Below are positions 40,096-63,042 of a DNA stretch of 64,000 bases, one piece after another. The position numbers and the translations under genes are program-made. The DNA comes from Rhizobium brockwellii (GTDB lineage Bacteria; Pseudomonadota; Alphaproteobacteria; Rhizobiales; Rhizobiaceae). A model generated the notes under the pieces. The model had not been told where the DNA came from. It saw only the letters and a program-made list of their open reading frames with translations, and did not search any database. Each line of letters starts with the position of its first letter. The stretch's first letter is position 1. The stretch is from contig NZ_CP053441.1 in the NCBI RefSeq assembly GCF_000769405.2, forward strand, positions 1 to 64,000, given 5' to 3'.

Positions 40096-40101
40096 GGGCA
40101 A

Positions 40102-42105: not shown

Positions 42106-42147
42106 GGAACAACCCGTTCATTATGTCTTGCGACGCAAAGCGCCAGG

Positions 42148-43711: not shown

Positions 43712-45043
43712 ATGGCTACAACATCGCATTACGGACCGTCGTCGTCGTCGCTGGAACGCGACGCGCGGCGCATTCACGACGACAAACCGGTTTCGCCTGG
43801 TAGTATCGCCATCGGCGTGGTGATCGGCCGCATGTCGGAATTCTTCGATTTCTTCGTTTATGGCCTCGCTTCGGTCCTGGTCTTTCCACAGCTGATCTTC
43901 CCCTTCGCGCCGGACAGGCTGACGGGCACGCTCTATTCCTTCGCCATCTTCTCGCTGGCCTTCCTGGCCCGCCCGGTCGGCTCCGTGGTCTTCATGACGA
44001 TCGACCGGCTGTACGGCCGCGGCACCAAGCTGACGATCGCGCTCTTCCTGCTCGGCGGCTCCACCGCCTCGATCGCCTTCCTGCCGGGTTACGAGGAGAT
44101 CGGCGCCTGGTCGATCGCATTGCTGGCGCTTTTTCGTCTCGGCCAGGGCTTCGCGCTCGGCGGCGCCTGGGACGGCCTTGCCTCGCTGCTCGCGCTCAAC
44201 GCGCCGGCCAGGCACCGCGGCTGGTATGCGATGATCCCGCAGCTCGGCGCGCCGATCGGCTTTGCGCTGGCCAGCACCCTCTTCGGTTATTTCGTCGCCA
44301 ATCTTTCCAGCGAGGATTTCCTCTCCTGGGGTTGGCGTTATCCATTCTTCGTCGCCTTCGCGATCAACGTCGTGGCGCTGTTTGCGCGGTTGCGGCTCGT
44401 CATGACGAAGGAGTTCGGCACGCTGCTTGAGCAGCATGAGCTGGAAGCAGCCCCCATCCTCGACGTGCTACGCGTCCACGGCCGCGACATCCTGATCGGC
44501 GCCTTCGTGCCGCTCGCGAGTTTTGCCATGTTCCACCTCGTCACCATCTTTCCGCTCGGCTGGATGAGCCTTTACGGCAACCAGCCGATCGGCGCCTTCA
44601 TGGTGGTGCAGGTGATCGGCGCCGCGGTCGGCATCCTCACGATCATCGCCTCGGGCCTGATCGCCGACCGTATCGGCCGGCGCGCCCAGCTTGCCATCTG
44701 CGCCGTCATCATCGCTATCTTCAGCTTTATCGGGCCGAGTCTGATCGCATCCGGCAACAGCGGCCATGACGCTTTCGTCATCATCGGCTTCGGGGTGCTT
44801 GGTCTTTCCTTCGGCCAGGCGACCGGCTCGATCTCGTCCCGCTTCGGCCGCGGCTACCGTTATACCGGTGCGGCCTTCACCTCGGATCTGGCCTGGTTGA
44901 TCGGCGCGGGTTTTGCGCCGCTGGTGGCACTCAGCCTTTCCAGCCGCTTCGGCCTGACCTTCGTCGGCTACTACCTGCTGTCCGGCGCCATCTGCACACT
45001 TGCGGCCCTCGCCTTCAGCAGGGCGCTGGAGCAACGCGAATAG
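43712..45043 (+). CDS. MFS transporter, metabolite:H+ symporter type
   Basis: A 443-residue transporter with twelve predicted helices. The first helix pair (GRMSEFFDFFVYGLASVLVFPQ, LARPVGSVVFMTIDRLYGRG) has the fingerprint of the metabolite:H+ symporter subgroup (sugar porter-like, as in ProP/KgtP/ShiA relatives). The start ATG 43712 is preceded by GGGAGG; an upstream in-frame ATG at 43679 is not supported. It is divergent from cyoABCD and may share its control region. The small antitoxin-like gene starts 17 bases after its stop. Substrate unknown. Confidence 0.88.
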   Translation: MATTSHYGPSSSSLERDARRIHDDKPVSPGSIAIGVVIGRMSEFFDFFVYGLASVLVFPQLIFPFAPDRLTGTLYSFAIFSLAFLARPVGSVVFMTIDRLYGRGTKLTIALFLLGGSTASIAFLPGYEEIGAWSIALLALFRLGQGFALGGAWDGLASLLALNAPARHRGWYAMIPQLGAPIGFALASTLFGYFVANLSSEDFLSWGWRYPFFVAFAINVVALFARLRLVMTKEFGTLLEQHELEAAPILDVLRVHGRDILIGAFVPLASFAMFHLVTIFPLGWMSLYGNQPIGAFMVVQVIGAAVGILTIIASGLIADRIGRRAQLAICAVIIAIFSFIGPSLIASGNSGHDAFVIIGFGVLGLSFGQATGSISSRFGRGYRYTGAAFTSDLAWLIGAGFAPLVALSLSSRFGLTFVGYYLLSGAICTLAALAFSRALEQRE

Positions 45044-45060
45044 GACTTTGCGAGGAAGCC

Positions 45061-45276
45061 ATGCCTGGGAGAGACGTGAGACCGGGTAGTGCCCAGGCTT
45101 TGCGGCGCACCCACGAGGCGGCGGCATACGAGAGATGGTTTCTCGAACGGGTTGGGGAAGCGATCCGGGAAGCCGATGCTCCCAACGCCATCTGGATCCC
45201 GCACGAAGTCATTAAGGAAGAGATGGTGCGAGAACGTGCCGAGTTGCTTGCCTTGCTCACGCACGAGGGCAAGTGA
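45061..45276 (+). CDS. Antitoxin-like stability determinant, orphan
   Basis: A 71-residue helical protein with the pattern AAAYERWFLERVGEAI...IPHEVIKEEM, which resembles the short antitoxins (stability determinants, ParD/StbD-like) encoded just before a ParE/RelE toxin, where the common form is YDRWFRAKVxxAL...IPHDEVMAEM. GAGGAA precedes the ATG, so it is likely translated. The expected toxin gene is missing: only 35 bases follow before the convergent cNMP-binding gene. It may be the remnant of a toxin-antitoxin pair, or act as an anti-toxin for a distant toxin. Confidence is moderate because it is short. Confidence 0.6.
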   Translation: MPGRDVRPGSAQALRRTHEAAAYERWFLERVGEAIREADAPNAIWIPHEVIKEEMVRERAELLALLTHEGK

Positions 45277-45311
45277 GGATCGTTTGGTCACCCAAATCCT
45301 ATAGCTGAATC

Positions 45312-45821
45312 CTATTGCGCCATTTGCGGCTGCTTGGCCGCCCGGGCCGCGGTCAGTTCCGCGGTGGTGTGGTTCAGACGGTCGGCCAGCACTCGCATGA
45401 TTTCCACGGCCATCTCCGGAAAATCGCTGAGCAGCTTCAGGAAGTGTTCCTTGCTGATGCGCAGCACCTCGAGCGGCGAGGTGGCGCGCACCGTCGCCGT
45501 GCGCGAGACATCGCAGAGAATGGCGATTTCGCCGACGATGGAATTGGGTTCGACATCTGCGACCTTGATCTCGCCGGCCGGTGAGGCGACGACGATATCG
45601 GCCGTACCCGTAAGGATGACATAGGCGGCATCACCGACATCGCCCTGATGGAAGAGGTCCTGTCCGGCCTTGTAGGTCATTCGGTCGGAGGTAAACGCCA
45701 AAAGCTTGAGCTTTGCTGGCGCAATCCTTGAAAAGATCGGCACCCTTCGCAACATTTCGACTTCGTCTCTCAACAGCATGAGCGTTTCAATCCCCTGACG
45801 CAGGTCCACAGGACCAGGCAT
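45312..45821 (-). CDS. Stand-alone cyclic-nucleotide-binding protein
   Basis: A 169-residue protein consisting of one cNMP-binding beta-roll (about residues 30-145) with no DNA-binding domain after it, so it is not a CRP-type transcription factor. The phosphate-binding cassette is present: GEIAILCDVSRTATVRA, with the Glu and the Arg that contact the ribose and phosphate of cAMP or cGMP in this family. ATG 45821 has GGAG spaced seven bases; a GTG at 45854 is less likely. It is separated from the pseudo-ABC gene by about 58 bases and lies downstream in the same direction, so a sensor role for that protein is plausible (inference). Confidence 0.88.
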   Translation of the reverse strand: MPGPVDLRQGIETLMLLRDEVEMLRRVPIFSRIAPAKLKLLAFTSDRMTYKAGQDLFHQGDVGDAAYVILTGTADIVVASPAGEIKVADVEPNSIVGEIAILCDVSRTATVRATSPLEVLRISKEHFLKLLSDFPEMAVEIMRVLADRLNHTTAELTAARAAKQPQMAQ

Positions 45822-45879
45822 CTTCAAACTCCGAGGCGTTCCCATCGGGAACACCCACCATCGCCGCCCCTATAGAATA

Positions 45880-48594
45880 TTACGATAACAGTTCCTTGAA
45901 CATCCCGTTTTTCTCGGAAAGTTCCGGATAGTTTCCGGCTTCCGCCAATCCGCCGCGGTCGAAGAGCAGGATCCGGTCGAACATCTCTGCCAGCCGGGCA
46001 TTGGAGAGCACCCAGATGATCGCCGGCCGATGGCCTTCCTCGTGCAGGTTCTCGATGATGTTGCGGGTGATCTGATCCTGAACGCGCTGGTCGAGCGCCG
46101 ACAGCGGCCGGTTGAAGATGAAATAATCCGAGCGCTTCAATAGCGCGCGGGCCAGGTTCAGCTTCTGCCGCTGCACCATGGTCAGCCGTTTGCCGCCGGA
46201 GCCGACGTCGAATTCGAGGCCGATCGACAGCACGTCGTCATAAAGGTCGAGCGCATCGAAGAGTTCGCCCATGATGCCGCGGAGGCGGTCGGAGGCGTCG
46301 GCCTGCTGATAGGCGATACGGCCGAAAAGCACGTTGTCCATCAGGCTTGCCGACGGCGTGAAACGCTCGGCGTCGTAGCGCTCGATCAGCTCGGCGAGAT
46401 CGGCCGGAATATGTTCGTGGAACTGCTTGCGGGCGCTGACGATCTTGTCCATGAGCTCGTTCGTCAGCAAGCCGAAGCGGTGGCGCGGCTCGATATAGGC
46501 AAAACTCAGCCGGATGATGGCCGAACGCTCCTCAGGCGTGGCGTCCTCGAAGCGGCGGCTTTGCAGCTTCTGCAGCAGCGCCTGGTAGGTCGGAATGTCG
46601 TCCGCCGTCATGAAGGTCAGCTGCTGGAAGAAAGGATGGTCCGGCGGCAGGTCGTGGAAGAGTTCCACCGCGTTCTCGGCGATCTCGAGGCCCATGTCGT
46701 AGAGATCGGTGCTGAGGCCGGTCTCACGGAATAGCTGCTGGAAATAGGGATGCGCAGCAAGCCTGCGGTTGGTCATCAAAGGCCGCTTCATCGTGCCGAA
46801 GAGCAGGTTCTCGCCAACCGTCGCCTGGGCGTTATAGGCGTCGAAATCGAAAGGCACGACGATCGTGTCGAGCCCCTCGTCGCGCAGCCGGTCCCTGAGC
46901 GAGGCGCGTAGCGCCACGACGTGGTCGCCGAGCGCCACGTGCACGTCTGTGTTGACGGTCGAGCGCAGCGCCAGATCGAGGATGTCCTGCGAGATCAGGA
47001 CGGCGTCGAGCACCGGGCGGATCGCTTTCAGAATGTCCTCGGGCCCACTGGCGCCGGCGGCCTTGTAGTCCACCCAGTCGCTATTGAGGTCGAGCGTCGG
47101 ATTGCCGGCCTTCTCCGCCTCGGCGGAATGCCATTTATACTCCAGCGCTTCCCGCTCGTCGTAAACCGGATCGGTCATCGGCGCATGTTTCAGGCCGTAG
47201 AGCAGATTGCTGGCGAGCGTGCCGTGAAAGAAGAAGGTGTCGGACGAGGCATAGGAGATCCGCCGGCCGGTGATCGATTCCGGCATGTCCAGCAGATCGC
47301 GGCCGTCGATGGTGATGCGGCCGGAGTCCGGCCAGACCATGCGGCCGAGCGCTTCGGCGAAGGCTTCGGCGCCGCTGCCGTTCGGCCCGACGATCGCCAC
47401 CGTCTCGTTCGGCTTGATCTCGACGGAGACGTGGTCGACAAGGCGGGCGCCGCTGTCGTCGGAGAGCGACAGGTTGGTGACGACGAACGCGCCCGTCAGC
47501 GCGCCGACCGGGGCGGTCGCGAGTTCCTGGATGCGGCTGTCGATCAGTGGCTCGACATTGAACTGCTCATAGACCTGCTGGTACTTCACCTGCACGTCCT
47601 GGCGCATCTGGTCCCAGTCGATCAGTTCCTTCAGCGGACCGGGCAGGTCCTTGTAGGCTGATATGACGGCGACGAGCTGGCCGATGTCGAGCCGGCCCTG
47701 CAGCGCCAGGTAGCCGCCGATCGCGTAAAACAGGAAAGGCGTGACCTGAGCGAGGAAATTGTTGATGAACTTCACCAGGAACTTCCACTGGTAAAGGTCG
47801 TAGCGGATCGAGAAGATCCGGCCGAGTCGCGAGGCGATGTCGGCGCGTTCGAGGTTTGATGTGTCGTTGCCGTGGATCGTGCCGATGCCGTCGACGATTT
47901 CGCCGACGCGACCGGAGAGCTCGCGCGCCGTTAGCTGCCGCTGGCGACCGAGATCCAGCAGGCGCTTGCGCATGCGGGGAATGACGATGGCCTGGACGCC
48001 GACGATGCCGGCGGCGATCATGCCGAGCCAGAAATTTTGCACAATGATGAAGGCGAGAGCCGTGATCGCCTGGCCGCCGAGAAGGGCAGGGGAGACGAAG
48101 GCATCGCCGGTGAAGCCGCCCATCGGCTCCACCTCGTCCTTGATCATGGTGGCGATTTCGGCCGATTTCACCCGCTTGAAGTGAATGGGCGGAAAACGCA
48201 GCACCCGGTCGATCAGCTCGAAGCGGATACGGCGCAGCATGCGCTCGCCGAGCCGGCCTTTATAGGTGTTGATGTAGAACTTGAAGAGGCCGTTCAGCAC
48301 CACCAGCGCCAGAAACACCAGGCTGAGGGCCATCAGCATCTGGAAGCGGTTGAGCTGCAACCCTTGAAAGAATTCGACATGGCCGATCAGCGGCAGGTCG
48401 TAGGCAATGTGCATAAAAGTCTGCGTTGCGCCCGGACCTTCGAAGCCGTCACCCTGGATCGGTCCGTTGACGATCTGCTTCGGCAGGTCGAAGGACAAGA
48501 AGTAGGGGACCATCGAGGCGGCGACGACAGCCAGAATCCACAGCTGCTGCAGCCGCGTGTTCTTCCAGATGTAGCGGGCGAGGCTTTTTTCCAT
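45880..48594 (-). CDS. Pseudo-ABC exporter with inserted region and inactive NBD
   Basis: A 904-residue protein with an ABC exporter membrane domain (about residues 15-330) followed by a nucleotide-binding domain whose catalytic motifs are lost. Walker A reads GPNGSGAEA (Ala for the Lys, residues 403-411), the signature LSGGQ is LTMVQ (804-808), Walker B is FIFNRPLSALD (825-835, no Asp-Glu) and the H-loop His is replaced (VLSNA). About 300 residues are inserted between the Q-loop region and the signature. Within it the segment after the Q-loop occurs three times: SNLLYG (462-467), ENLLFG (595-600), DNVLFG (753-758). The frame is intact, so the protein is probably used, but ATP hydrolysis by the classical mechanism is unlikely. 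The neighbours are glycosyltransferases and a cNMP-binding protein. Confidence 0.85.
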   Translation of the reverse strand: MEKSLARYIWKNTRLQQLWILAVVAASMVPYFLSFDLPKQIVNGPIQGDGFEGPGATQTFMHIAYDLPLIGHVEFFQGLQLNRFQMLMALSLVFLALVVLNGLFKFYINTYKGRLGERMLRRIRFELIDRVLRFPPIHFKRVKSAEIATMIKDEVEPMGGFTGDAFVSPALLGGQAITALAFIIVQNFWLGMIAAGIVGVQAIVIPRMRKRLLDLGRQRQLTARELSGRVGEIVDGIGTIHGNDTSNLERADIASRLGRIFSIRYDLYQWKFLVKFINNFLAQVTPFLFYAIGGYLALQGRLDIGQLVAVISAYKDLPGPLKELIDWDQMRQDVQVKYQQVYEQFNVEPLIDSRIQELATAPVGALTGAFVVTNLSLSDDSGARLVDHVSVEIKPNETVAIVGPNGSGAEAFAEALGRMVWPDSGRITIDGRDLLDMPESITGRRISYASSDTFFFHGTLASNLLYGLKHAPMTDPVYDEREALEYKWHSAEAEKAGNPTLDLNSDWVDYKAAGASGPEDILKAIRPVLDAVLISQDILDLALRSTVNTDVHVALGDHVVALRASLRDRLRDEGLDTIVVPFDFDAYNAQATVGENLLFGTMKRPLMTNRRLAAHPYFQQLFRETGLSTDLYDMGLEIAENAVELFHDLPPDHPFFQQLTFMTADDIPTYQALLQKLQSRRFEDATPEERSAIIRLSFAYIEPRHRFGLLTNELMDKIVSARKQFHEHIPADLAELIERYDAERFTPSASLMDNVLFGRIAYQQADASDRLRGIMGELFDALDLYDDVLSIGLEFDVGSGGKRLTMVQRQKLNLARALLKRSDYFIFNRPLSALDQRVQDQITRNIIENLHEEGHRPAIIWVLSNARLAEMFDRILLFDRGGLAEAGNYPELSEKNGMFKELLS

Positions 48595-48776
48595 GGCTAA
48601 CCGTCAGCTTGCTGGGAAATTCCGGGGGCGCGATCCGGGCGCCGGGACGGGGAGGGATCTTAAGAACAGGATCATGCAGCCGGACCGCCGATATCGCAAT
48701 GAAAACAAGGCGAAAGGACCGGCTTCAAAAGTGCCGATTCTCGCCTGAACATTGCTTATACCACAGGAATTTTGGA

Positions 48777-49922
48777 TTAGGCGAGGGATTCGGCAATCAT
48801 GGAGCGAATGATGAGGGCGGTTTTCTCCGCCCCATCGAGGTCGAGCGAGACCGGCCCCCGTGGCTGTGCGGCGAGCGCCTTTTCCACCGCCTCTTTCACA
48901 TGGCCCGCCGTCAGTCCGGTTTCCGGCAGAATATCGGCGAGGCCGAGCGCCTGCAGCCGTTCGGCGCGCACCGTCTGCTCGGTCTCACCACCGGCGACGA
49001 AAGGGATGAGGATCGCCCGGCATTCGGTGCGCAGCAGGTCGCCGACCGTGTTGTAACCTGCCTGCGAGATCGACACCTTGGCGCCGCGCAGCAGCGAGGG
49101 AAAATCCTTGCGGAAGCGCACCAGCGTCACATTCGGGGCCGCGTCCTCAGACAGCGCGGCGAAATCGGCCTCCGGCAGGTTCGGGCCAGCGACCAGCAGC
49201 CAGCGAAGATCGTCCGGTAGCAGCGCTGCCGCCTCTTTTGCCGCGCCGATCAGCGCGGCGCCGACCGCGCCGCCGCCCGCCGATGCGATGATGTCGAATG
49301 TCTCGGTCGGTTCGGGCGCCGGCGGGGCTGCGACGAGGCCGGTATAACGCAGCCTGTCGGCGATCTCGGCTGTCAGCGGGAAGGTGTCCTCAAGCCTGAC
49401 GAAACCGGGATCGCCATGGACGAGCACGGCATCGAAATGATCCTTGACCAGTGTGGCGGTCTCCGCGTCGCGGCCGGCCTTGCGGTTTTGCTGCAGGATG
49501 TCGCGCACCGAACTTAGAAGTTTCGGCCGCGGCTCGGCCTTGTCGATCGCCTCGAGCAGCGGCAGCAGTTCGAAGCGCATCTGTCGCCGGCCGAACGGGA
49601 AGGCTTCGATGATGACGACATCGGGCCTTGCGGCATGAAAGGCATCGAGCAGCAGCTGGCGGCGGGCATGGAGGAAGTCCTCGCCGGCCGGCCGGCCATC
49701 GGCATCGGCGAGACCGGAGAAACCGGCATTGCTGGCAACGACCGCCGGCAAGGCCACGGTCTTCACGCCTTCGCCGGGAAAGCCCGGCACCGGCAGGCCG
49801 CCGGTCACGACAGTGACGTCAAAACCGTCCCTGACCAGCGCGTTGGCGATGCGGCTGGCGCGGGCTATGTGGCCGATGCCGAGCAAGTGCTGGACGTAGA
49901 AGAAAATGCGCGGTGCCGTCAT
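48777..49922 (-). CDS. GT28-like glycosyltransferase A
   Basis: A 381-residue glycosyltransferase with the GT-B fold: N-terminal FFYVQHLLGIGHIARASRIANAL (acceptor-side glycine motif GIGH) and C-terminal donor site VSISQAGYNTVGDLLRTE...PFVAGGETEQTVRAERLQALG, as in MurG and UGT enzymes. It begins at ATG 49922, overlapping the GT4 stop by four bases, with AAGG behind it. It is related to glycosyltransferase B at 51176 (both have G-x-GH...R and QAGYNT/MGGYNT signatures). It probably adds a sugar from a nucleotide donor to a lipid- or wall-linked acceptor; substrate unknown. Confidence 0.88.
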   Translation of the reverse strand: MTAPRIFFYVQHLLGIGHIARASRIANALVRDGFDVTVVTGGLPVPGFPGEGVKTVALPAVVASNAGFSGLADADGRPAGEDFLHARRQLLLDAFHAARPDVVIIEAFPFGRRQMRFELLPLLEAIDKAEPRPKLLSSVRDILQQNRKAGRDAETATLVKDHFDAVLVHGDPGFVRLEDTFPLTAEIADRLRYTGLVAAPPAPEPTETFDIIASAGGGAVGAALIGAAKEAAALLPDDLRWLLVAGPNLPEADFAALSEDAAPNVTLVRFRKDFPSLLRGAKVSISQAGYNTVGDLLRTECRAILIPFVAGGETEQTVRAERLQALGLADILPETGLTAGHVKEAVEKALAAQPRGPVSLDLDGAEKTALIIRSMIAESLA

Positions 49923-51166
49923 GACGCCTTCTGCCATTCGGCCTCGAACAGGCCGGTGAGCTGTCTGATGCTGGAGTGATAGTCGAAATATTGGCGCACC
50001 TGGTGTTCGGCGGCATCGCCGAGCCGCTTGCGCAGCGCCGGGTCGCGGATCGCCGCCTCCAGCGCCTCGGCGAGCTTCGTCGGGTCGTCCGGCGGCACGA
50101 CGAGGCCGTTTTCACCGTTCTTCAGGAGTTCCGGTACGCCGGATACTTCGGTCGAGAGGCAGACGAGCCGCTGGCTGGAGGCCTCGACCAGGACGTTCGG
50201 CAAGCCGTCGCGGTCGCCGTTGGCAGCGATCCGGCAGGCGAGCGCGAAGAGGTCGGCGCGGCGGTAATGATCGAGCACGTCTTCCTGGGCCATGGCGCCC
50301 TTCCAGACGATGCGGCCGGAGATGCCGAGTTCGTTGGCCATCGCCTTCAGTTTCGCAAGCTCCTCGCCGCCGCCGATATGGTCCATGCGCCATTGAAGGT
50401 CGGCGGGCAACAGCGCAAGCGCGCGCAGCAGCACGTCGTAGCCCTTCTTCTCGACGGCGCGGCCGACGCTGAGGATGAAGGCCGGATCGTCGGGGTCGCT
50501 GCCGGTCCGGTCCGAACGCTCGCCGGCAAAATGGCCGAAGCGGGCGAGATCGAGACCGTGGTAACTCAAGTGCACGGCCTCCTTGCGTGACGTCAGCGTG
50601 CGCATATGGTCGTAGCCTGTCCTGGTGCAGGTGACGGTCCAGCGGGCGCTGCCGAGTTTCTCGTTCAGCTCCCAGTCGGGAGACGTCCATATGTCCTTGG
50701 CGTGCGCCGAACAGGTCCAGGGCGTGCCCGTGAGGATGCTCGCATATTCCGTCACCGAAGCCGGCGTGTGGATGAAATGGGCATGCAGCCATTCGCCCTC
50801 GTCCGGCCATTCGCGCCCCAGCACTAGCGCCTGTCCGAGGCGGCGGAAGCGGTTGCGGGAGACGTCGCGCTTGAGGTCGGCGAGGAAGCGTTTCATCAGC
50901 GCCTTGAAGCCGGGTTTGGAGAGGCCGGCGATGAGGCCCTTCAGCACTCGGATCGGCTCTTCGTGCAGATATTCCGGCAGATAGACGACGCGCGCCCGGA
51001 TCTCGTCATGCACGGGATGGCGCTTCTTGTCGGTCGGCCGGCGCATCGAAATCAGCGTGAGGTCGAAGCCGGCCTTTTCGAGGCCGAGCAGTTCCTGGGC
51101 GATGAAGGTTTCCGAAAGGCGGGGATAGCCTTTCAGCACGACGAGGATCTTGCGGCGTGGCGGCAA
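49919..51166 (-). CDS. GT4-family glycosyltransferase
   Basis: A 415-residue GT-B enzyme of the GT4 group. YPRLSETFIAQELLGLEKAGFD at the N-terminus is typical of exopolysaccharide and lipopolysaccharide enzymes, and the donor-binding end has DGLPNVLVEASSQRLVCLSTEVSGVPELL, in which the first Glu of the E-x7-E motif is Asp. It is located between the two GT28-like genes: nine bases after the upstream gene and overlapping the next by four, so the three form a translation-coupled trio. Confidence 0.9.
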   Translation of the reverse strand: MPPRRKILVVLKGYPRLSETFIAQELLGLEKAGFDLTLISMRRPTDKKRHPVHDEIRARVVYLPEYLHEEPIRVLKGLIAGLSKPGFKALMKRFLADLKRDVSRNRFRRLGQALVLGREWPDEGEWLHAHFIHTPASVTEYASILTGTPWTCSAHAKDIWTSPDWELNEKLGSARWTVTCTRTGYDHMRTLTSRKEAVHLSYHGLDLARFGHFAGERSDRTGSDPDDPAFILSVGRAVEKKGYDVLLRALALLPADLQWRMDHIGGGEELAKLKAMANELGISGRIVWKGAMAQEDVLDHYRRADLFALACRIAANGDRDGLPNVLVEASSQRLVCLSTEVSGVPELLKNGENGLVVPPDDPTKLAEALEAAIRDPALRKRLGDAAEHQVRQYFDYHSSIRQLTGLFEAEWQKAS

Positions 51167-51175
51167 GGCTGTGCC

Positions 51176-52384
51176 CTATTCCGCGCCGACGAGGGAAAGG
51201 TGGCTGCCGCGGCCGTCGATCCAGCGACCGACGGTCTGCGAGATATGGTCCAGTCCTTCGAGACGCATATTGCCGCCGCTCTTCGACGGTGGCTGACGGG
51301 AGGGCAGGCGCTTCAGCGCTTCGGCCATGATGGTCGGATCGACCGATTGTTCCGGCAGCAGCATGTCGACGAGGCCGAGTTCGCTCGCGCGTTGGGCGCG
51401 TAGCAGTTGCTCCTCGCGTGGCTTGACACGCGGCACGATGAGGGCCGGCTTGTCGAAGGAGAGGATCTCGCAATAGGTGTTATAACCGCCCATGGCGACG
51501 ACGCCGGTCGCGCCGTCGATCAGCTCTTCCATGTGGTTGTCGAATTCGATCACCTCGATATAGGGGATGGCTTCCCCCTTCTGCACCAGCTTGGCGCGCT
51601 CGGCGGCCGGCATATAGGGGCCGAGCACGACGAGCGCCTTCTGCGTCAGCGTCGGATCGGCCTCGTAGGCGTTCATGACGTCATGGACGAGATCGGAGCC
51701 GTCGCCGCCGCCGCCTGTGGTGACGAGGATGTAATTGTCCTTTCGGGCGTTGATCGAGGTCTTGCCCCTGGAGACGCTGCGCTGCAGGAAGCCGACGAAA
51801 TCCATCTTCCGGCGCAGGCTGGCCGGCACGTCGAGGCCGATCAGCGGATCGTAGAAATCCGGCGGACCGTAAACCCAGACGCTGTCGTAATACTGGTCGA
51901 TCTTCTGCATGATGCTGTTCCTCTTCCACTCGGCCTCGAGCAGATGCGGCGCATCCATGATCTCGCGCAGGCCGAGCACCAGGACGGTGCCGCGGGCCTT
52001 GAGATAGGCGAGCGTATCCTCGACCTCGCCTTTCAGTCCCATCGGTTCCTTGTCGACGATGAAGATATCGGGCTGGAAGGTCTCGGCCGTGTGGCGAATG
52101 CTCGATTCGCGCATCTTCAGCGTCTCGTGCAGGTCGATATGGCTGGCGAGCGAGGTGTATTCGCCGTTGCGGAGCTTGATGACGCTCGGGATCTTCACGA
52201 AGTCGACACGGGCACGGTAGTCGAAGGCGCCGGCAATCGTGGCACCCGAAATGATCAGAATATTGAGGCCGCGATAATCCTCGACCAGCGCATGGGCGAT
52301 GGCGCGACAACGGCGCAGATGGCCGAGACCGAAAGTATCGTGGCTGTACATGAGGATGCGCGCATCTTCGAGACGTCTGGACAT
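51176..52384 (-). CDS. GT28-like glycosyltransferase B
   Basis: A 402-residue GT-B glycosyltransferase. N-terminal ILMYSHDTFGLGHLRRCRAIAHAL holds the GLGH motif and the C-terminal half includes GVVAMGGYNTYCEILSFDKPALIVPR...EQLLRAQRASELGL, the UGT/MurG-type donor site. It starts at ATG 52384 (MSRRLEDARI); the frame extends to 52426 without a credible N-terminus. It heads the three-gene glycosyltransferase set and follows the peptide-type permease at 52481 by less than 100 bases on the same strand. Confidence 0.88.
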   Translation of the reverse strand: MSRRLEDARILMYSHDTFGLGHLRRCRAIAHALVEDYRGLNILIISGATIAGAFDYRARVDFVKIPSVIKLRNGEYTSLASHIDLHETLKMRESSIRHTAETFQPDIFIVDKEPMGLKGEVEDTLAYLKARGTVLVLGLREIMDAPHLLEAEWKRNSIMQKIDQYYDSVWVYGPPDFYDPLIGLDVPASLRRKMDFVGFLQRSVSRGKTSINARKDNYILVTTGGGGDGSDLVHDVMNAYEADPTLTQKALVVLGPYMPAAERAKLVQKGEAIPYIEVIEFDNHMEELIDGATGVVAMGGYNTYCEILSFDKPALIVPRVKPREEQLLRAQRASELGLVDMLLPEQSVDPTIMAEALKRLPSRQPPSKSGGNMRLEGLDHISQTVGRWIDGRGSHLSLVGAE

Positions 52385-52480
52385 GGGCATCCCTTCTGGG
52401 GTCAGCAACATACTTAGTAACCCCACCGTCCGGAGGCCAAGAGGTGGGGGCGGTGCCGTGATGCGCCGCCGCGTTTCCTG

Positions 52481-53653
52481 CTATTTGTAGGGATCTGCCG
52501 CATCACGCAAGCCGTCTCCCAGAAAGTTGAACGCCAAAATGACAAGAACAACAGGAATGATCGGATAGAGCAGCCATGGATAGAAGGCGATGACGCTGAC
52601 GCTTTTTGCCTCGGTCAGCAGAATGCCCCAGCTGGTGATCGGCGGACGAAGGCCGAGGCCGAGGAAGGAGAGCGCGGTCTCTCCAAGGATCATGCCGGGA
52701 ATTGAAATCGTCGCCGACGCAATGAGATGCGACATGAAGCCCGGCACCAGATGCCGGCCGATGATGCGCGGCGTGCTGGCCCCCATCAGCTGCGCTGCCT
52801 GGACATAATCCTCCTCGCGCAGCGCCAGGAGTTTGGACCGCACGGCACGCGCGAGCCCCGTCCAGTCGATGATGCCGAGGATGACGGTGATGCCGAAATA
52901 GATGACGATCGGGCTCCACGTCACCGGCATGATGGCAGCCAGCGCCATCCATAGCGGCAGGCTCGGCAGCGATTGCAGCACTTCGATCAGCCGCTGGACG
53001 ATGAGATCGAAGACGCCGCCGCGATAGCCGGCGAGGCCGCCGATGACGATGCCGAGCACGAAGCTGATCGAAATCCCGATCAGACCGATCGTCAGCGATA
53101 TCCGCGCGCCGTAAAGAATGCGCGAAAGGACGTCACGGCCGAGCCGGTCGGTGCCGAGCAGGAACATCTGACCGCCGATTGCCGGGCAGACGAGATGATA
53201 GTTCGAGGCGGCAACGCCCCAGAATTTATAGGCATCGCCGCGGCAGAAGAAACGGATCGGCTGCACGTCGTTCGTCTTGTCGGTATAGACGCGGTGCAGC
53301 GTGTCGATATCGAGCGTCATGCTGCGGCCGTAGACGAAGGGACCGACGAAGCTGCCCTTGTCGAAGAAGTGGACGCGCTGCGGCGGCGCGTGGATGAAAT
53401 CGACATTGCGCGTGTGCAGCCCGTAGGGCGCCAGGAACTCGACGATCACGATCATCAGGTAGACGGCGGCGAGAAAGATGCCGGAGATCAAGGCCAGCTT
53501 GTGCTGCTTGAACTTCCACCACATCAGCTGCTTCTGCGAGGCGAGATGGATGCGCGATTGCGCCGACGTCATCGATTCGGTCGCAAGCGGATCGAAAGGA
53601 GCAGTCGAGACGTAATGGGGAAGCGGCGCGCCGGGTGCGGGAAGGGGCGACAT
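52481..53653 (-). CDS. ABC importer permease, DppC/OppC type
   Basis: A 390-residue inner-membrane permease with an N-terminal helix near residue 50, a periplasmic segment of about 100 residues before the second helix, and then five helices carrying the coupling motif EEDYVQAAQLMGASTPRIIGRHLVPG (EAA loop). The long insertion between helices 1 and 2 is a hallmark of one branch of peptide/opine-type permeases. The start shares a base with the stop of the other permease, so both are translated together. It transports the ligand bound by the Tat-exported binding protein two genes up. Confidence 0.93.
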   Translation of the reverse strand: MSPLPAPGAPLPHYVSTAPFDPLATESMTSAQSRIHLASQKQLMWWKFKQHKLALISGIFLAAVYLMIVIVEFLAPYGLHTRNVDFIHAPPQRVHFFDKGSFVGPFVYGRSMTLDIDTLHRVYTDKTNDVQPIRFFCRGDAYKFWGVAASNYHLVCPAIGGQMFLLGTDRLGRDVLSRILYGARISLTIGLIGISISFVLGIVIGGLAGYRGGVFDLIVQRLIEVLQSLPSLPLWMALAAIMPVTWSPIVIYFGITVILGIIDWTGLARAVRSKLLALREEDYVQAAQLMGASTPRIIGRHLVPGFMSHLIASATISIPGMILGETALSFLGLGLRPPITSWGILLTEAKSVSVIAFYPWLLYPIIPVVLVILAFNFLGDGLRDAADPYK

Positions 53654-54651
53654 TATTTGGTGCTCCTGCCTTGCAGACGGATGCGGGGATCAAGAAAGCC
53701 GAGTGCGATGTCGGAGATCAGCACGCCGATGACGTTGAGGAAGGCCAGGAACATCAGGAAGGAGCCGGCGAGATACATGTCCTGGCTCTGCAGCGCCTTG
53801 ATGAGCATCGGCCCCGTCGTCTCCAGCGACAGCACGATCGCGACGATCTCGGCGCCCGAGATGATCGACGGCAGGATCGAGCCGATATCGGCGACGAAGA
53901 AGTTGAGCGCCATGCGCAGCGGATATTTGATCAGCGCCTTCAGCGGCGGCAGGCCCTTGGCGCGGGCGGTGACGACATACTGCTTCTGCATCTCGTCGAG
54001 CAGGTTGGCGCGCAGCCGCCGGATCATGCCGGCCGTGCCGGCCGTGCCGACGATGATCACGGGGATCCATAGATGAGAGAGGATCGACCGCGCCTTCTCC
54101 CAGCTCATCGGCGCCGAGATATATTGCTGGTCCATCAGATGGCCGATCGAGATGCCGAACCAGATATTGGCGAAATACATCAGGATCAGTGCCAGCATGA
54201 AGTTCGGAACGGCGATGCCGAGCAGGCCGAGGAACGTCAGCCCGTAATCACCCCAGCTGTACTGGTGCGTGGCCGAATAGATGCCGATCGGAAAGGCGAT
54301 CAGCCAGGTGAGCAGGATCGTCGTGAAGGAGACGAGCATCGTCAGCCACAAACGATCGCCGACGACGTCGGAGACCGGCAGCTGGTATTCGAAGGAATAA
54401 CCGAAATCGCCGTGCAACATGCCGCCGACCCAGTAGAAATAGCGCACGATCTCCGGTTTGTCGAAGCCGTATTGCTGCCGCATCTCCTCGATTTCCTGGA
54501 GGTTGGCGGTCTCGCCGGAGGCACGCAGCTCGGCGATCTGGCTCTCGAAGAAGTCGCCGGGCGGCAGCTCGATGATGGTGAAAACCAGCGCCGAAATGAC
54601 GAAGAGTGTCGGCACCATGGCGGCGATGCGCCAGAGAATGTATCTGAGCAC
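53653..54651 (-). CDS. ABC importer permease, DppB/OppB type
   Basis: A 332-residue permease with six helices. The N-terminus MLRYILWRIAAMVPTLFVISALVF and the EAA loop YVVTARAKGLPPLKALIKYPLRMALN are those of DppB/OppB permeases. It begins three bases after the stop of the substrate-binding gene and ends at the start of the DppC-type permease. The sequence ELPPGDFFE...IEEMRQQYGFDKP is conserved in this branch. It is one of two permeases of a complete importer. Confidence 0.93.
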   Translation of the reverse strand: MLRYILWRIAAMVPTLFVISALVFTIIELPPGDFFESQIAELRASGETANLQEIEEMRQQYGFDKPEIVRYFYWVGGMLHGDFGYSFEYQLPVSDVVGDRLWLTMLVSFTTILLTWLIAFPIGIYSATHQYSWGDYGLTFLGLLGIAVPNFMLALILMYFANIWFGISIGHLMDQQYISAPMSWEKARSILSHLWIPVIIVGTAGTAGMIRRLRANLLDEMQKQYVVTARAKGLPPLKALIKYPLRMALNFFVADIGSILPSIISGAEIVAIVLSLETTGPMLIKALQSQDMYLAGSFLMFLAFLNVIGVLISDIALGFLDPRIRLQGRSTK

Positions 54652-54654
54652 GCC

Positions 54655-56562
54655 TCAGGCCTCCTTGTACCAGAATGCATCCGGCATATAGACGCCGAGA
54701 TAGGAGGTGGGATCGAAGCCGTAGAGCGCTTTCTCCGGCAGGTTCTGCAGTTTGGCGGCGCAAAGAACGGGCTGCAGCGTGCTGTTGATGAGACCGATCG
54801 AGAAAACCTGCTGCGTATAGAGCGACAGCATCTTGTGCCAGATCACCTGACGCTCCTCGAATTTCGCCGTCGAGCCCCATTGGCCAAGCAGGTCAACCAG
54901 TTCGGCTGCCTCCGGCAGGTCAGGTGCGACCCCCTCCTGGCCGGCGGAAAGGTAATGCATGCCCCAGAGCGGCCATTGCAGCTGATCGTCGAGTGTCGGG
55001 GCAAGGCCTGCAGGCGACATGTCCGCCGTCGGCACGCCATTGTCGAGGCCGTACCAGATCGACATCATGATCGAACCGCTCATGGCGCGGTTGCGGAAGA
55101 CGTCGCGCTGCGAGGTACGGGTATAGAGCGCCAGGCCGATATTGGCCCAGTGGTCGTGCACCAGTTCCAGCACGTCGGTGTCGAGATTGCTCTCGCCGGC
55201 AGTCTCGACGGTGATCTCGGCGCGACGCCCGTCCGGCAGCAGCCGGATGCCGTCGTCGCCGCGTTTGGTCAAGCCGAGCTCGTCGAGCAGGCGGTTGGCC
55301 TCGTCGGGATCGAACTTCACGAAGGCGTCGGCATATTCCTGCTTGAAGAGCGGGCTGTCGGGCAGGACGGTATCGGCGCTTGGCGTGCCGAGGCCGTAGA
55401 AGGCCACCATGTTGACCTCGTGCCGGTCGATCGCCAGCGACAAAGCGCGGCGCAGGCGCACGTCGCGGAAGAGGCCGCGCCACGCCTCGTCGGCGCAGTT
55501 GAGGTTCGGCAGCAGCGTGATGCGCGAGCCGCGCGCGAGCTTCCAGAGATTGACCTTCACCGGGAACCGCTTCTCTGCCTCCTTCAGGAAGGTGTAGTCG
55601 TTGAAATCGATGCCGGTCACCTGCAGGTCGGCTTCGCCTGCACCAGCCTTGGCGGCGATGATCGACGAGGAGGAGACGTTGAGGATGAAACGGTCGAGAT
55701 AGGGAAGCTGCCTGCCGGTCTCGTCGACCCGGTGGAAGAACGGGTTGCGCTCGAAGACGAACTGCTCGGACGGCAGTGGCGTCGTATTGCGCCAGGGATC
55801 GAGCGTCGGCAGGTTCGGATTTTCCGGACGATAGGAACGCGCCATCTTGATGTGCAGATCCTGCCATTTTTTGACGCGATAGGTCTTCATCAGCTCGTCC
55901 ATCTTCGCCTGGTCCGGCTGGAATTTCTTGTGGAACTGCTTGAGATAATGACCGGGGCCGAAGATGACGAGCGGCTGCGGGCCTGCCAGCGTCGGCAGGA
56001 ACATCGGGTTGGGTTTTTCCCAGGTGTAGCGCACGGTCAGCGGATCGAGCATTTCGAAGCGCGGCAGGCTGCCGTGCGGACGAAGCTCCAGCGCGCCGCC
56101 GCCGGGCGTCAGCTTGTCGTTCAGGATGACGTCTTCCCACCAGTAGCGGAAATCGTCGGCGGTGAACGGCTGGCCGTCGGACCATTTATGGCCCTCGCGC
56201 AGCGTGAAGGTGAAGACCGTGTCGTCCTCGGACTGGAAACGGGCCAGGATGTCCGGCTGGAACTGCAGGTGCTTGTTGTAGCCGACCAGGCGGGCATAGC
56301 CGTAGATCGTCATGAAGCGGATGTCGCGCTGGCTGCCGATGATGGTGCGCACCGTGCCGCCATAGGCACCCGGTTCGAGCCCCATCTCCTTCAGATTGAC
56401 GATGCGCGGGCGCAGCGGAATGCGCTCGGCCATCGGCGGCAGGCTGCCTGATGTCAGCCGCTCCTTGAGGAATTCCGGCTCGCCGGCCTGTCCGGCGCGA
56501 AGCACCGCGGGCGCGATCGCCGCACCCACGAGGCCGCCGAGAAACGTACGACGCGTCACCAT
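54655..56562 (-). CDS. Extracellular solute-binding protein, SBP_bac_5 (Tat-exported)
   Basis: A 635-residue periplasmic binding protein. The N-terminus [21 protein letters not shown] is a Tat signal with the RR-x-F-L pattern, the remainder the cluster C peptide/opine-binding fold (LREGHKWSDGQPFTADDFRYWWEDVI near residue 120, RRALSLAIDRHEV near 375). It is about 90-100 residues longer than DppA. The ATG overlaps the ATPase stop in a TGATG. The ligand is not identifiable: peptides, opines, sugars and murein pieces are bound by family members. Tat export suggests it folds in the cytoplasm first. Confidence 0.92.
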   Translation of the reverse strand: MVTRRTFLGGLVGAAIAPAVLRAGQAGEPEFLKERLTSGSLPPMAERIPLRPRIVNLKEMGLEPGAYGGTVRTIIGSQRDIRFMTIYGYARLVGYNKHLQFQPDILARFQSEDDTVFTFTLREGHKWSDGQPFTADDFRYWWEDVILNDKLTPGGGALELRPHGSLPRFEMLDPLTVRYTWEKPNPMFLPTLAGPQPLVIFGPGHYLKQFHKKFQPDQAKMDELMKTYRVKKWQDLHIKMARSYRPENPNLPTLDPWRNTTPLPSEQFVFERNPFFHRVDETGRQLPYLDRFILNVSSSSIIAAKAGAGEADLQVTGIDFNDYTFLKEAEKRFPVKVNLWKLARGSRITLLPNLNCADEAWRGLFRDVRLRRALSLAIDRHEVNMVAFYGLGTPSADTVLPDSPLFKQEYADAFVKFDPDEANRLLDELGLTKRGDDGIRLLPDGRRAEITVETAGESNLDTDVLELVHDHWANIGLALYTRTSQRDVFRNRAMSGSIMMSIWYGLDNGVPTADMSPAGLAPTLDDQLQWPLWGMHYLSAGQEGVAPDLPEAAELVDLLGQWGSTAKFEERQVIWHKMLSLYTQQVFSIGLINSTLQPVLCAAKLQNLPEKALYGFDPTSYLGVYMPDAFWYKEA

Positions 56563-58451
56563 CAGCGCAACTCCTTGGCATCGGCGCCTTTGCGGGCGCG
56601 CACCAGATGACCGTCGCCGAGGTCGGCATAGGCAAGTTCGGAAGCGTCGTCATGCTCGGCGGTGAAGGTCGCGCCCCAGTTCTGCTTGTCAGCGGCGCCG
56701 TTTTCTCTGAGCGCCTTGAAATCGAGCGGCCGGTCGAGATCGGGGAAGGGCACGGCGGCGAGCAGCGATTTCGTATAGGGGTGCACCGGATCGCGCAGGA
56801 TGATCTCGCGCGGCGCGATTTCGACAATACGGCCCTTGCACATCACCGCGATGCGGTCGGCCATATAGTCGACGACCGCGAGATTGTGCGAAATGAACAG
56901 ATAGGTAAGCCCCAGCTCCTTCTGCAGGTCCTTCAACAGATTGAGGATCTGCGCCTGCACCGAGACGTCGAGCGCCGAGACCGGCTCGTCGAGGATGACG
57001 AGCTTCGGGCCGAGCGCGAGCGCCCGCGCAATACCGATGCGCTGGCGCTGGCCGCCCGAAAAACTGTGCGGGTAACGGCTGAGATAACGCTTGTCGAGGC
57101 CGATGGCCGCCATCAGCCCTTCGACCTTGCGCTTGCGCTCGTCGCTGTCGCCGCGGTCATGGATTTCGAGCGGTTCACTCAGGATGTTGCGCACCGTCAT
57201 GCGCGGCGAGAGCGAGGAGACCGGATCCTGGAACACCATCTGGATCTTGGTCCGCATGTCCTGCAGTTCTGAGCCTTTGACAGAGAGGACGTCGACGACC
57301 TCCTTGCCGTCGTTGAACACCACCGCGCCGCTGTCCGGCGTGATCGCGCGCATCAGGATCTTGCTGAGCGTCGTCTTGCCGCAGCCGGATTCGCCCACCA
57401 GGCCGAGACATTCGCCGCGGCGGATGTCGAAGCTGACGTCGTCGACGGCGCGCAGGACGGTGGCTTCGTGCTTGCCGAAGAAACTGCGCTTGCGCGTCTT
57501 GTAGGTCTTCGAGAGATTGGCGACGGACAGCAGGGTGCCCGGCGCCTCAGCCTGCAGCGGCTTCTTCTTGCCGACGAGGGACTCGAGATTGACCGTTACC
57601 TCGCGCAGCGCTTTCAGCCGCTCGCCGGGTTTCATGTCGAAATGCGGAACGGCGGCCATCAGGCCCTTGAGGTAGGGATGCTGGGGATTGCGGAAGATAG
57701 CCTCGACCGGCCCGGCCTCCATGATCTCGCCGTGGTAGATGACGACCACCTCGTCGGCCATGTTGGCGACGATGCCGAGATCGTGAGTGATCAGCAGCAT
57801 CGCCATGCCGAGCTTGGCCTGCAGCTCGCGGAGCAATTCCAGGATCTGCGCCTGGATCGTCACGTCAAGCGCCGTCGTCGGCTCGTCGGCGATCAAAAGC
57901 GCCGGCTTGCAGATCAGCGCCATGGCGATCATCGCGCGCTGGCGCATGCCGCCGGACAGTTCGAACGGATACATGTCGTAGGTGCGATGTGGGTTGGAAA
58001 AGCCGACCAGGCCAAGCATCTCCTCGGTCTTTTCACGGGCTTCCTGCTTGTCGGCTTCGGTATGGATCAGCAGCACTTCGCTGATCTGGTTGCCGATCGT
58101 ATGCAGCGGCGAGAGCGAGGTCATCGGCTCCTGGAAGATCGTCGCCATGCGGCGGCCGCGCAGGTCGCGCATTTCCTCGCTGTCGCGCGGAAAGGACAGG
58201 ATATCGGTCGTGCTGCCGTCGAGCGGATCGGTGAAAAGGATGCTGCCCGAGGCCTTGGCCGGATTGGGCAGGATGCCCATGATCGACTGGCTGATCACCG
58301 ATTTTCCCGAGCCGGATTCACCGACGAGAGCAGTGACCTTGCCCGGAAGAATGCGAAGATTGGCTTGTTTTACGACGCGGAGTCGGTCACCGAAAACCGA
58401 GAAGGAGACGTCGAGATTTTCAATACGCAACAGATCGGCTGCAGACGCCAT
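56562..58451 (-). CDS. Fused double ATPase subunit of peptide-type importer
   Basis: A 629-residue fusion of two ABC ATPases, corresponding to DppD and DppF joined in one chain. Domain 1 has [24 protein letters not shown] and [12 protein letters not shown] (about residues 10-260); domain 2 has [24 protein letters not shown] and [12 protein letters not shown] (about 310-560), each with H-loop ISH/ITH and a C-terminal oligopeptide extension. Both sites look complete, so the importer has two active ATPase sites, unlike the pseudo-ABC gene downstream. It is the first gene of the importer operon. Confidence 0.95.
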
Positions 58452-59949: not shown

Positions 59950-60456
59950 TCTCGGTATGATCCTCATAAGGCACGCCATCCCCAAGAGCCAAAAGTCCCT
60001 CGGCCGGCACATTTTCATGCGCAGGTCACAAGGAAATCAGGATGTACGAGCGGTATTATTGTGTCAACGATCTGCCGAAAGCCCGGCAGCAGCGCCCCTC
60101 AGCTCCCCATATTCGGGGATCGGACGGGTGGTCCTTTCACGGTGGTTCATTATCAAAAGTCAAAATAGGGATGCTGCAAATGCGAAACAATGGGAGCTTC
60201 AATTTTTTGTGCGCTCAAGTTGCAGCAAAGGGTGAGGCCTGAGTCATTTCCGCCACGGCCTGCTAGCGGATTTGGGTATCAATGTCACGCGACATCCCGG
60301 CCCAGGAGATCGGCGAGAGGGTTAGGCTGAGCGCTGCCATTGGCGCCAATCGGACGGCCGTGCCGCCGGAAAGACGAGGAAGATCCGCGCCCGGGTTTAA
60401 TTTGCCTGGATCATGCATTAGATCAGCCTTCTCTTCCCCGTTTGAAAGATCCCGCC
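59950..60456. other. Non-coding spacer with weak hairpin
   Basis: The 507 bases between the cyclase start and the sugar dehydrogenase start contain no convincing gene. The short frames here (for example at 60042-60242) lack a ribosome binding site and a family. Near 60107-60117 CCCC-ATATT-CGGGG can form a small hairpin, and the region around 60160-60220 is AT-richer. It must contain the two divergent promoters. Confidence 0.5.
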
Positions 60457-61794
60457 TTGGCCACCTCCACCTTCGATACGCTTTTGCAGAAGATCGAAAC
60501 CCGCGCGGCCCGTGCCGGCATCATCGGCCTCGGCTATGTCGGCCTGCCGCTGGCGATGGCGGTGGCGCGCAGCGGCTTTGCGGTCACCGGCTTCGACATC
60601 GATCCGGGCAAGATGGTGGCTCTCGATGGCCGCCGCTCCTATATCGACGCGGTGAGCGACGAGGCGCTGTCTGCCGAGATCGATGCGGGCCGCTTCAAGG
60701 CGACAACCGATTTCGCCGGCCTTGCCGAGTGCGACGTCGTCATCATCTGTGTGCCAACGCCGCTCACCAAACATCGAGATCCCGACCTTTCCTTCGTCGA
60801 GGCGACGTCGCGCTCGATTGCCGCGCATTTGCGCCCCGGTCAGCTCGTCGTACTGGAATCGACCACCTATCCCGGCACAACCGATGACGTGGTGAAGGTC
60901 ATTCTCGAAGGCACCGGGCTGAAATCCGGCTCTGACTTCTTCGTCGGCTTCTCGCCGGAGCGCGAGGATCCGGGCAACCAGCATTATCATACCGCCACCA
61001 TCCCCAAGGTCGTCGCCGGCGACGGGCCTGAGGCGCTGGCGCTGATGAAGGCCTTTTATGGGGCGGCGGTATCATCCGTCGTTCCGGTCTCGTCGAATGC
61101 GACGGCCGAGGCCGTGAAGCTTACCGAAAACATCTTCCGCTCGGTCAACATCGCCCTCGTCAACGAGCTGAAGACCGTCTATGCGGCAATGGGCATCGAC
61201 GTCTGGGAAGTCATCGACGCGGCCAAGACCAAGCCCTTCGGCTACATGCCCTTCTACCCCGGCCCCGGCCTTGGCGGCCATTGCATCCCGATCGATCCCT
61301 TCTACCTCACCTGGAAATCGCGCGAGTACGAGCTGCCGACCCGCTTCATCGAACTCGCTGGCGAGATCAATTCGGCCATGCCGCGTTATGTCGTCGGCAA
61401 GCTTGCCGAAGCGCTCGATATCCGCGCTGGCAAGGCGCTGAGCCGCAGCAGGGTGCTGGTGCTCGGGCTCGCCTACAAGAAGAACGTCGCCGATATCCGC
61501 GAGAGCCCGTCGCTGCGGCTAATCGAGATCATCGAGGAGCGTGGCGGACACGCAGATTACCATGATCCCTTCGTCGCCGAGATCCCGCCGACGCGCGAAT
61601 ACCAGGCGCTGAAGGGCCGCAAATCGGTGACGCTGACGCTTGATACCATTGCCGGCTACGATGCAGTGCTGGTGGCGACCGATCACGACAAGGTGGATTA
61701 TGCGGCGCTCGCAAAAAACGCCTCGCTGATCATCGACACGCGCAACGTCTTCAACCGGCTCGGCCTCTCGGCCGATCACGTCATCAAGGCGTAA
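60457..61794 (+). CDS. UDP-N-acetyl-hexosamine/UDP-hexose dehydrogenase
   Basis: A 445-residue enzyme of the UDP-glucose/GDP-mannose dehydrogenase family, which oxidises C6 of a nucleotide sugar twice, with NAD+, to a uronic acid. The Rossmann motif GIIGLGYVGLPLA lies at residues 20-32, the catalytic Cys276 in GPGLGGHCIPIDPFYL, and RVLVLGLAYKKNVADIRESPS near 345 is the C-terminal domain mark. It is nearest to the WbpO/TviB/WecC branch (UDP-GlcNAc or UDP-GalNAc dehydrogenases), as judged by these motifs only. The TTG at 60457 is preferred as start; ATG 60340 would add 39 residues of unlike sequence. The product could be used by the nearby glycosyltransferases. Confidence 0.88.
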   Translation: MATSTFDTLLQKIETRAARAGIIGLGYVGLPLAMAVARSGFAVTGFDIDPGKMVALDGRRSYIDAVSDEALSAEIDAGRFKATTDFAGLAECDVVIICVPTPLTKHRDPDLSFVEATSRSIAAHLRPGQLVVLESTTYPGTTDDVVKVILEGTGLKSGSDFFVGFSPEREDPGNQHYHTATIPKVVAGDGPEALALMKAFYGAAVSSVVPVSSNATAEAVKLTENIFRSVNIALVNELKTVYAAMGIDVWEVIDAAKTKPFGYMPFYPGPGLGGHCIPIDPFYLTWKSREYELPTRFIELAGEINSAMPRYVVGKLAEALDIRAGKALSRSRVLVLGLAYKKNVADIRESPSLRLIEIIEERGGHADYHDPFVAEIPPTREYQALKGRKSVTLTLDTIAGYDAVLVATDHDKVDYAALAKNASLIIDTRNVFNRLGLSADHVIKA

Positions 61795-62959: not shown

Positions 62960-63042
62960 GTCATCGAGCTTAGCACAGACCCATGTTGCCACTGCAACGC
63001 CAATTCCCATTTACGGCAATCGACTTGGCAAGGTTTCATGTG

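Follow-up and report, generated by a model that had tools for sequence, protein, structure and literature searches.

The exporter fold of ATP-binding cassette (ABC) proteins has been turned into a channel or a regulator in CFTR and SUR1/SUR2, and to our knowledge the familiar exceptions to ATP drive either still have one or more functional ATP sites or have shed the nucleotide-binding domain (NBD) entirely. In the cyclic-nucleotide-gated channels MloK1 and SthK, a cyclic-nucleotide-binding (CNB) domain gates a membrane pore without ATP. According to the available text of PMC7756269, CFTR and ABCC9 bind ATP at both sites and CFTR hydrolyses it at site 2, and the available text of PMC10986499 describes HetC of Nostoc as a peptidase-containing exporter whose CNB domain is needed for function. 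Here we describe pABC, an exporter-like gene in a 64,000-nt stretch of Rhizobium brockwellii DNA (NZ_CP053441.1, positions 1-64,000; the window hereafter), whose product is very probably a pseudo-ABC exporter that no longer hydrolyses ATP. Coordinates of all features are collected in Table 1.

The first-pass annotation of the window had placed the gene correctly and described an open frame intact over 904 residues; this frame runs on the minus strand. It had also listed the Walker A Lys, the LSGGQ signature, the Walker B Asp-Glu and the H-loop His as replaced, and we re-read each of these losses in the window sequence. Walker A is GPNGSGAE instead of the canonical GxxGxGK[ST], with both the Lys and the Ser/Thr gone. 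The signature region reads LTMVQRQKL, with LTMVQ in place of LSGGQ, and in the Walker B stretch FIFNRPLSALD an Asn-Arg pair substitutes for Asp-Glu next to an intact D-loop (SALD). The aromatic residue of the A-loop is apparently missing as well, as judged by eye and not from an alignment. Loss of the Q-loop Gln, a long NBD insertion and a CNB partner go beyond what had been annotated. By contrast with the motifs, the domains of an ABC-B exporter are all recognizable. Pfam and structure matches identified both the membrane domain, which had rightly been called normal (ABC_membrane, PF00664, 57.1 bits with a cut-off of 28), and the NBD fold (ABC_tran, PF00005, 52.5 bits with a cut-off of 25, in the N-terminal part at profile positions 2-80 of 137), and SUR2B was among the best structural matches. 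As a control, GxxGxGK[ST] was found in 16/17 and LSGG[QEM] in 14/17 of the PF00664 exporters that this genome encodes besides pABC. Since pABC fails every ATPase motif tested, it should not, judged by its sequence, be classed as an ATP-driven exporter.

The motif loss is conserved. We compared the window protein with its 120 closest relatives among the matches listed (a close set of 121 sequences, the relatives being 75-96% identical and 807-920 residues long, with 108/121 exactly 904 aa). The Walker A Lys, the following Ser/Thr, the Q-loop Gln, LSGGQ, the Walker B Asp and Glu and the H-loop His were each present in 0/121, and the Glu position was occupied by Arg in 121/121. A single decaying copy among close relatives with intact motifs, the outcome that the first-pass annotation had set against its own proposal, is at odds with this absence of catalytic motifs in all 121 sequences. 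A diverse set of 118 members, comprising the window protein and 117/154 loci after sequences below 800 aa or duplicates of the 500-residue core had been dropped, spans 27-100% identity. In this set the Walker A Lys was kept in 41/118, the Ser/Thr in 21/118, the Q-loop Gln in 13/118, LSG[GA]Q in 2/118, the Walker B Asp and the catalytic Glu in 33/118 each and the H-loop His in 17/118. All seven features were gone in 43/118 members, and the maximum retained was four of seven. The expectation that the same substitutions recur across species thus held for the close set, where the loss is identical, but distant members share the loss and not the exact substitution. Minimum numbers of state changes on a transmembrane domain (TMD) tree were 11 for the Lys, 16 for the Glu and 10 for the His, gains and losses being indistinguishable in these counts because the tree is unrooted. 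This tree was built rapidly from the TMD columns under LG+G4; 30/114 of its inner branches are open, and it carries one joined-long-branch warning. Such repeated changes fit repeated erosion of a site that may no longer be needed.

At a presence threshold of E 1e-60 or 1e-70, and with the window's own genome included in each tally, relatives of pABC were found in 45/61 genomes of the nearest set, 69/199 of the order and 97/289 of the class. They were also found in 27/398 genomes drawn from the phylum, all 27 from the same class (Alphaproteobacteria). Five genomes (G156, G185, G232, G385 and G231) carry two or three divergent copies, some of them CNB-fused in G156 and G385, and one listed relative (P0260, eukprot g606.t1), which comes from a collection of eukaryotic sequences but is 59% identical to a bacterial fused form, is probably bacterial contamination. 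Over positions 45200-49937 the window matches a Rhizobium leguminosarum plasmid at 99.9% identity. The ratio of nonsynonymous to synonymous substitution rates (dN/dS) was 0.07-0.18 for the whole gene and 0.035-0.098 for aa 1-350 in 12 Rhizobium comparisons, among which L018 and L064, with identical values, probably represent one genome. By these ratios, selection on pABC is purifying. Family-wide loss combined with purifying selection lends good sequence support to the earlier proposal that the protein was converted to a non-hydrolysing role.

Next to the loss of motifs, the distribution of conservation within the protein is inverted relative to canonical exporters. Among the large parts of pABC the TMD is conserved best, and the NBD core was more conserved than the TMD in only 74/5791 pABC pairs (counted at TMD identities of 25-60%). 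By contrast, the NBD was the more conserved domain in 349/349 orthologue pairs of a canonical alphaproteobacterial exporter and in 120/120 paralogue pairs among 16 of the 17 exporters of the same genome. The canonical control comprised 28/30 orthologues chosen for the presence of Walker A and LSGG[QE], as two had no frame with both. The distance from Walker A to the signature also separates the two groups, with 374-473 residues in 118/118 pABC members versus 104 in 28/28 canonical orthologues. The spacing is long because an insertion containing repeats of the Q-loop/helical segment sits between the two motifs. Repeats 2 and 3 of pABC matched each other in hhalign with a probability of 98.2% (E 3.9e-14), and their motif residues Asn596 and Asn754 are conserved in 118/118 members.

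A CNB protein is a nearly constant partner of pABC. We analysed 76 neighbourhoods in 68 genomes, chosen for diversity, of about 17 kb each and some of them cut by contig ends. pABC was paired with CNB in 75/76, as separate genes on the same strand, with CNB following pABC, in 60 and as a C-terminal fusion in 15. The gap between the separate genes was -199 to +110 bp in 54/60, with a 4-base overlap in seven of these. Two residues of the ligand motif, a Glu and an Arg that we take as markers of a cyclic-nucleotide pocket, were both present in 67/76 CNB sequences (the window and 75 loci). Thus the nucleotide site next to pABC persists while the ATP site of pABC itself has eroded. The partnership points to control of pABC by a nucleotide ligand, which would act through the CNB module. 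Among the listed relatives of the fused form L251, 23/120 carry an additional C-terminal GGDEF-like domain (PF00990). A pattern search found no GGDEF-type motif in the C-terminal parts of these 23/23 proteins, and an active GGDEF output in fused pABC-CNB forms was rejected on this ground. With this domain, P0306 and 22 others among P0306-P0360 carry a second degenerate signalling module in one polypeptide. In the record of R. johnstonii 3841, the CNB start lies about 25 codons later than in the window annotation. The two genomes also differ between the MFS gene and CNB, where the window has only about 270 bp (45043-45312) and R. johnstonii 3841 (L274:17240-17991) carries two genes, one hypothetical and one for a RelE/ParE-type toxin; this difference is an indel beside pABC-CNB.

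Three glycosyltransferase genes (GTA, GTB and GTC) adjoin pABC on its other side. All three have homologues in 50/76 neighbourhoods and at least one is present in 52/76, GTA and GTC cross-matching each other in these counts. The order of dehydrogenase start, cyclase, Opp importer, three glycosyltransferases, pABC and CNB is preserved on pSymB of S. meliloti 2011, and pRL11 of R. johnstonii 3841, the strain in which pABC is RL_RS29995, has the same layout as the window block. From gene order, we take pRL110043 to be the MFS gene near CNB and pRL110056 to be the sugar dehydrogenase of the block. In the available text of the respective sources, attachment to roots at pH 6.5 and 7.0 requires pRL110043, a putative efflux permease (PMC11406972), and pRL110056 is among the lipopolysaccharide/O-antigen enzymes important for root colonization (PMC11103875). 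These phenotypes are weak pointers for this block.

A class III nucleotide cyclase, one of 25 in this genome, lies between the Opp importer and the dehydrogenase gene and belongs to the same subfamily as cyclases in eight other pABC neighbourhoods (33-67% identity). Class III cyclases, taken as a single-linkage BLAST cluster and counted within a radius of about 7.5 kb, occurred in 23/76 neighbourhoods versus 2.9 expected from genome-wide PF00211 counts in the same 68 genomes, a figure to be read as an enrichment and not as a probability, as related genomes are not independent. In L182, L191, L196 and L250 the cyclase beside pABC bears a 2Fe-2S ferredoxin domain, which suggests that these enzymes may be redox-controlled.

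Several other genes were noted around the block. An MBL-fold hydrolase (PF12706; e.g. L198:6155-6979) is present in 17/76 neighbourhoods and is the next listed gene after CNB in 14; it is possibly a phosphodiesterase of the pABC-CNB circuit. The window encodes a DUF3095 protein (61784-63010) and a Methyltransf_17 protein (63185-63664) upstream, and the Methyltransf_17 cluster recurs in 13/76 other neighbourhoods, in 9 of them as the next listed gene after CNB. A 1302-aa frame at 39394-43302 on the plus strand, antisense to cytochrome bo oxidase genes, is almost certainly spurious.

Table 1. Features of the pABC locus and its surroundings, in window positions
Feature	Position	Strand	Basis or remark
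pABC (putative pseudo-ABC exporter gene)	45880..48594	-	904 aa; ATG at 48594, stop at 45880-45882
Transmembrane domain, aa 1-345	47560..48594	-	PF00664, AF2 helices, conservation, dN/dS
Degenerate Walker A GPNGSGAE, aa 403-410	47365..47388	-	read from window
Degenerate Q-loop region RISYASSDTFFF, aa 445-456	47227..47262	-	without Gln
Repeat 1 core TLASNLLYG, aa 459-467	47194..47220	-	
Family-specific NBD insertion, about aa 488-745	46360..47133	-	
Repeat 2, aa 560-650, contains FDFDAYNAQATVGENLLFG	46645..46917	-	hhalign; Asn596
Repeat 3, about aa 720-795, contains YDAERFTPSASLMDNVLFG	46210..46437	-	Asn754
Degenerate signature region VGSGGKRLTMVQRQKL, aa 797-812	46159..46206	-	without LSGGQ
Degenerate Walker B DYFIFNRPLSALD, D-loop SALD retained, aa 823-836	46087..46128	-	
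Degenerate H-loop AIIWVLSNA, aa 858-866	45997..46023	-	without His
CNB protein	45312..45854	-	PF00027 73.9 bits, cut-off 27.5; start codon uncertain
Cyclic-nucleotide-binding motif GEIAILCDVSRTA	45495..45533	-	Glu and Arg kept
GTA glycosyltransferase, GT28 C-terminal domain	48777..49937	-	Pfam; conserved neighbour
GTB glycosyltransferase, GT4 type	49919..51166	-	Pfam; conserved neighbour
GTC glycosyltransferase, GT28 C-terminal domain	51176..52426	-	Pfam; conserved neighbour
Opp-type importer: two permeases, solute-binding protein, fused ATPases	52481..58451	-	within syntenic block
Class III nucleotide cyclase, 470 aa	58606..60018	-	PF00211 27.5 bits, cut-off 21.9; about 10 kb from pABC
UDP-sugar/GDP-mannose dehydrogenase family gene	60340..61794	+	end of syntenic block

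We propose the following mechanism for pABC. The protein combines a predicted ABC-B (type IV) membrane domain with an NBD-shaped cytoplasmic domain, enlarged by an insertion in which its Q-loop/helical segment is repeated. A cyclase would supply a cyclic nucleotide that binds the CNB module, which would have to contact pABC where the two are separate proteins, and the ligand-bound module would push or release the pseudo-NBDs. Their movement, passed on via the coupling loops, would open or close the membrane domain, which could thereby let through or flip, with no ATP of its own, an intermediate (lipid-linked or soluble) of the surface glycan that the neighbouring glycosyltransferases would build. 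We regard control of pABC by the CNB ligand as likely. That pABC acts as a glycan gate or flippase stands at about even chances, and so, in our estimate, does the composite reading, in which a pseudo-ABC gate or flippase without ATP hydrolysis is controlled by a cyclic nucleotide and may serve surface glycan assembly. The broadest version, a class-wide family in which ATP drive was swapped for CNB control so as to couple second-messenger signalling to envelope glycan assembly, is a tentative proposal.

Several observations weigh against this mechanism. The Walker A Lys in 41/118 members and the Walker B Glu in 33/118 are retained, and therefore some clades may still bind nucleotide. Within about 7.5 kb, no homologue of the three glycosyltransferases was seen in 24/76 loci, among them 14/15 fused forms; the glycan link may therefore not be general. 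A cyclase of the cluster is missing from 53/76 neighbourhoods and present in only 3/15 fused forms, and that of the window, about 10 kb off, lies outside the counted radius. The window cyclase moreover appears, by eye and not from an alignment to a solved structure, to have Ser at both the Lys and the Asp positions that we take to specify the substrate; its product is therefore not predictable. In 9/76 CNB sequences the Glu or the Arg of the motif is missing, and the CNB domain of the HetC exporter is reported, in the available text of PMC10986499, to bind ppGpp. The ligand therefore need not be cAMP or cGMP.

The main rival, which we consider unlikely, is a membrane receptor or sensor whose TMD senses an envelope signal (e.g. 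a glycan intermediate) and relays it to CNB and effectors, with no transport involved. The CNB fusion in 15/76 loci and the GGDEF-like addition in 23/120 listed L251 relatives resemble a signalling chain, some genomes have two or three pABC copies, and 14/15 fused forms are without a glycosyltransferase neighbour. However, as no GGDEF-type motif was found by pattern search in the 23, no output enzyme is evident, the TMD is the large part conserved best, and the glycosyltransferase synteny in 52/76 neighbourhoods fits a substrate role as well.

A secondary transporter of SbmA/BacA type, its TMD running on the proton gradient and its pseudo-NBD and CNB being merely regulatory, appears improbable. 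SbmA itself is a precedent for an ABC-type TMD on a proton gradient (available text of PMC13316013), and in 120 aligned sequences Glu117 and Glu154 of pABC are invariant and Glu156 nearly so. However, no proton-coupling site was identified, only PF00664 and PF00005 matched up to E 1, and pABC has the NBD that SbmA does not. A plain SbmA-like protein was rejected, as the NBD is present and the Pfam family is different.

Quite improbable, too, is a heterodimer of the TM287/288 or TAP kind, in which the partner of pABC would hydrolyse ATP and pABC would contribute a degenerate NBD. All seven features are lost in 43/118 members, and the degenerate halves of established heterodimers are not known to lose as many. 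A search of the neighbourhoods for a partner, seeded with 16 canonical exporters from the same genome, left 75/76 without a second exporter, the sole case being a canonical-type exporter frame of 576 aa (L238:4101-5831) near a fused pABC-CNB. In the window's genome no other exporter lies within 12 kb of pABC; a distant partner is possible, and exporter genes occur about 12-15 kb downstream (L260, L261) and, beyond the window, about 16 kb upstream (L264). Also in favour of pairing, degenerate-site exporters are common and their degenerate site stays conserved, according to the available text of PMC7756269. A decaying pseudogene or sequencing artefact, to which the loss of every catalytic motif in the window copy might point, has a negligible chance and was rejected on the intact length of the relatives, the dN/dS of 0.07-0.18, the spread over 97/289 genomes of the class and the conserved synteny.

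If the proposed mechanism is true, a family that kept the whole NBD shape, lost the ATPase motifs in many lineages and was paired with a cyclic-nucleotide-type sensor would show how the ABC machine can be adapted to gating by a different ligand. A concrete target would then also be at hand for the numerous class III cyclases found in rhizobia and in Alphaproteobacteria more widely. In the open-access literature, queries that included the tag prefixes SMb2080-2082 and pRL11004-11005 (the Rhizobium tag being presumed) returned no title or abstract on pABC or its CNB pairing.

Among known systems, the ABC-B/type IV exporters (MsbA, NdvA, TM287/288, IrtAB) have the same TMD and NBD fold and the same domain order as pABC; pABC differs in its degenerate motifs, its longer span from Walker A to the signature, a TMD more conserved than the NBD and its CNB partner. 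SUR1/SUR2 and CFTR resemble pABC in that an ABC exporter fold is reused as a regulator or gate. Unlike the nucleotide sites of CFTR and ABCC9, however, no pABC member (n=118) retains more than four of the seven features. MloK1 and SthK offer a functional analogy with an unrelated membrane fold. SbmA/BacA (SLiPT) share with pABC an ABC-type TMD, and SbmA works without ATP hydrolysis according to the available text of PMC13316013; SLiPT proteins have no NBD and are thought to derive from a YddA-like ancestor, whereas pABC has a full pseudo-NBD and belongs to PF00664. HetC, as far as the available text of PMC10986499 describes it, requires its ATPase and peptidase and has an N-terminal CNB domain that binds ppGpp in vitro, whereas in pABC the ATPase motifs are gone and the CNB is either a protein of its own or fused at the C-terminus. 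The combination of a complete pseudo-NBD with a CNB partner is found in none of SbmA, HetC, CFTR and SUR.

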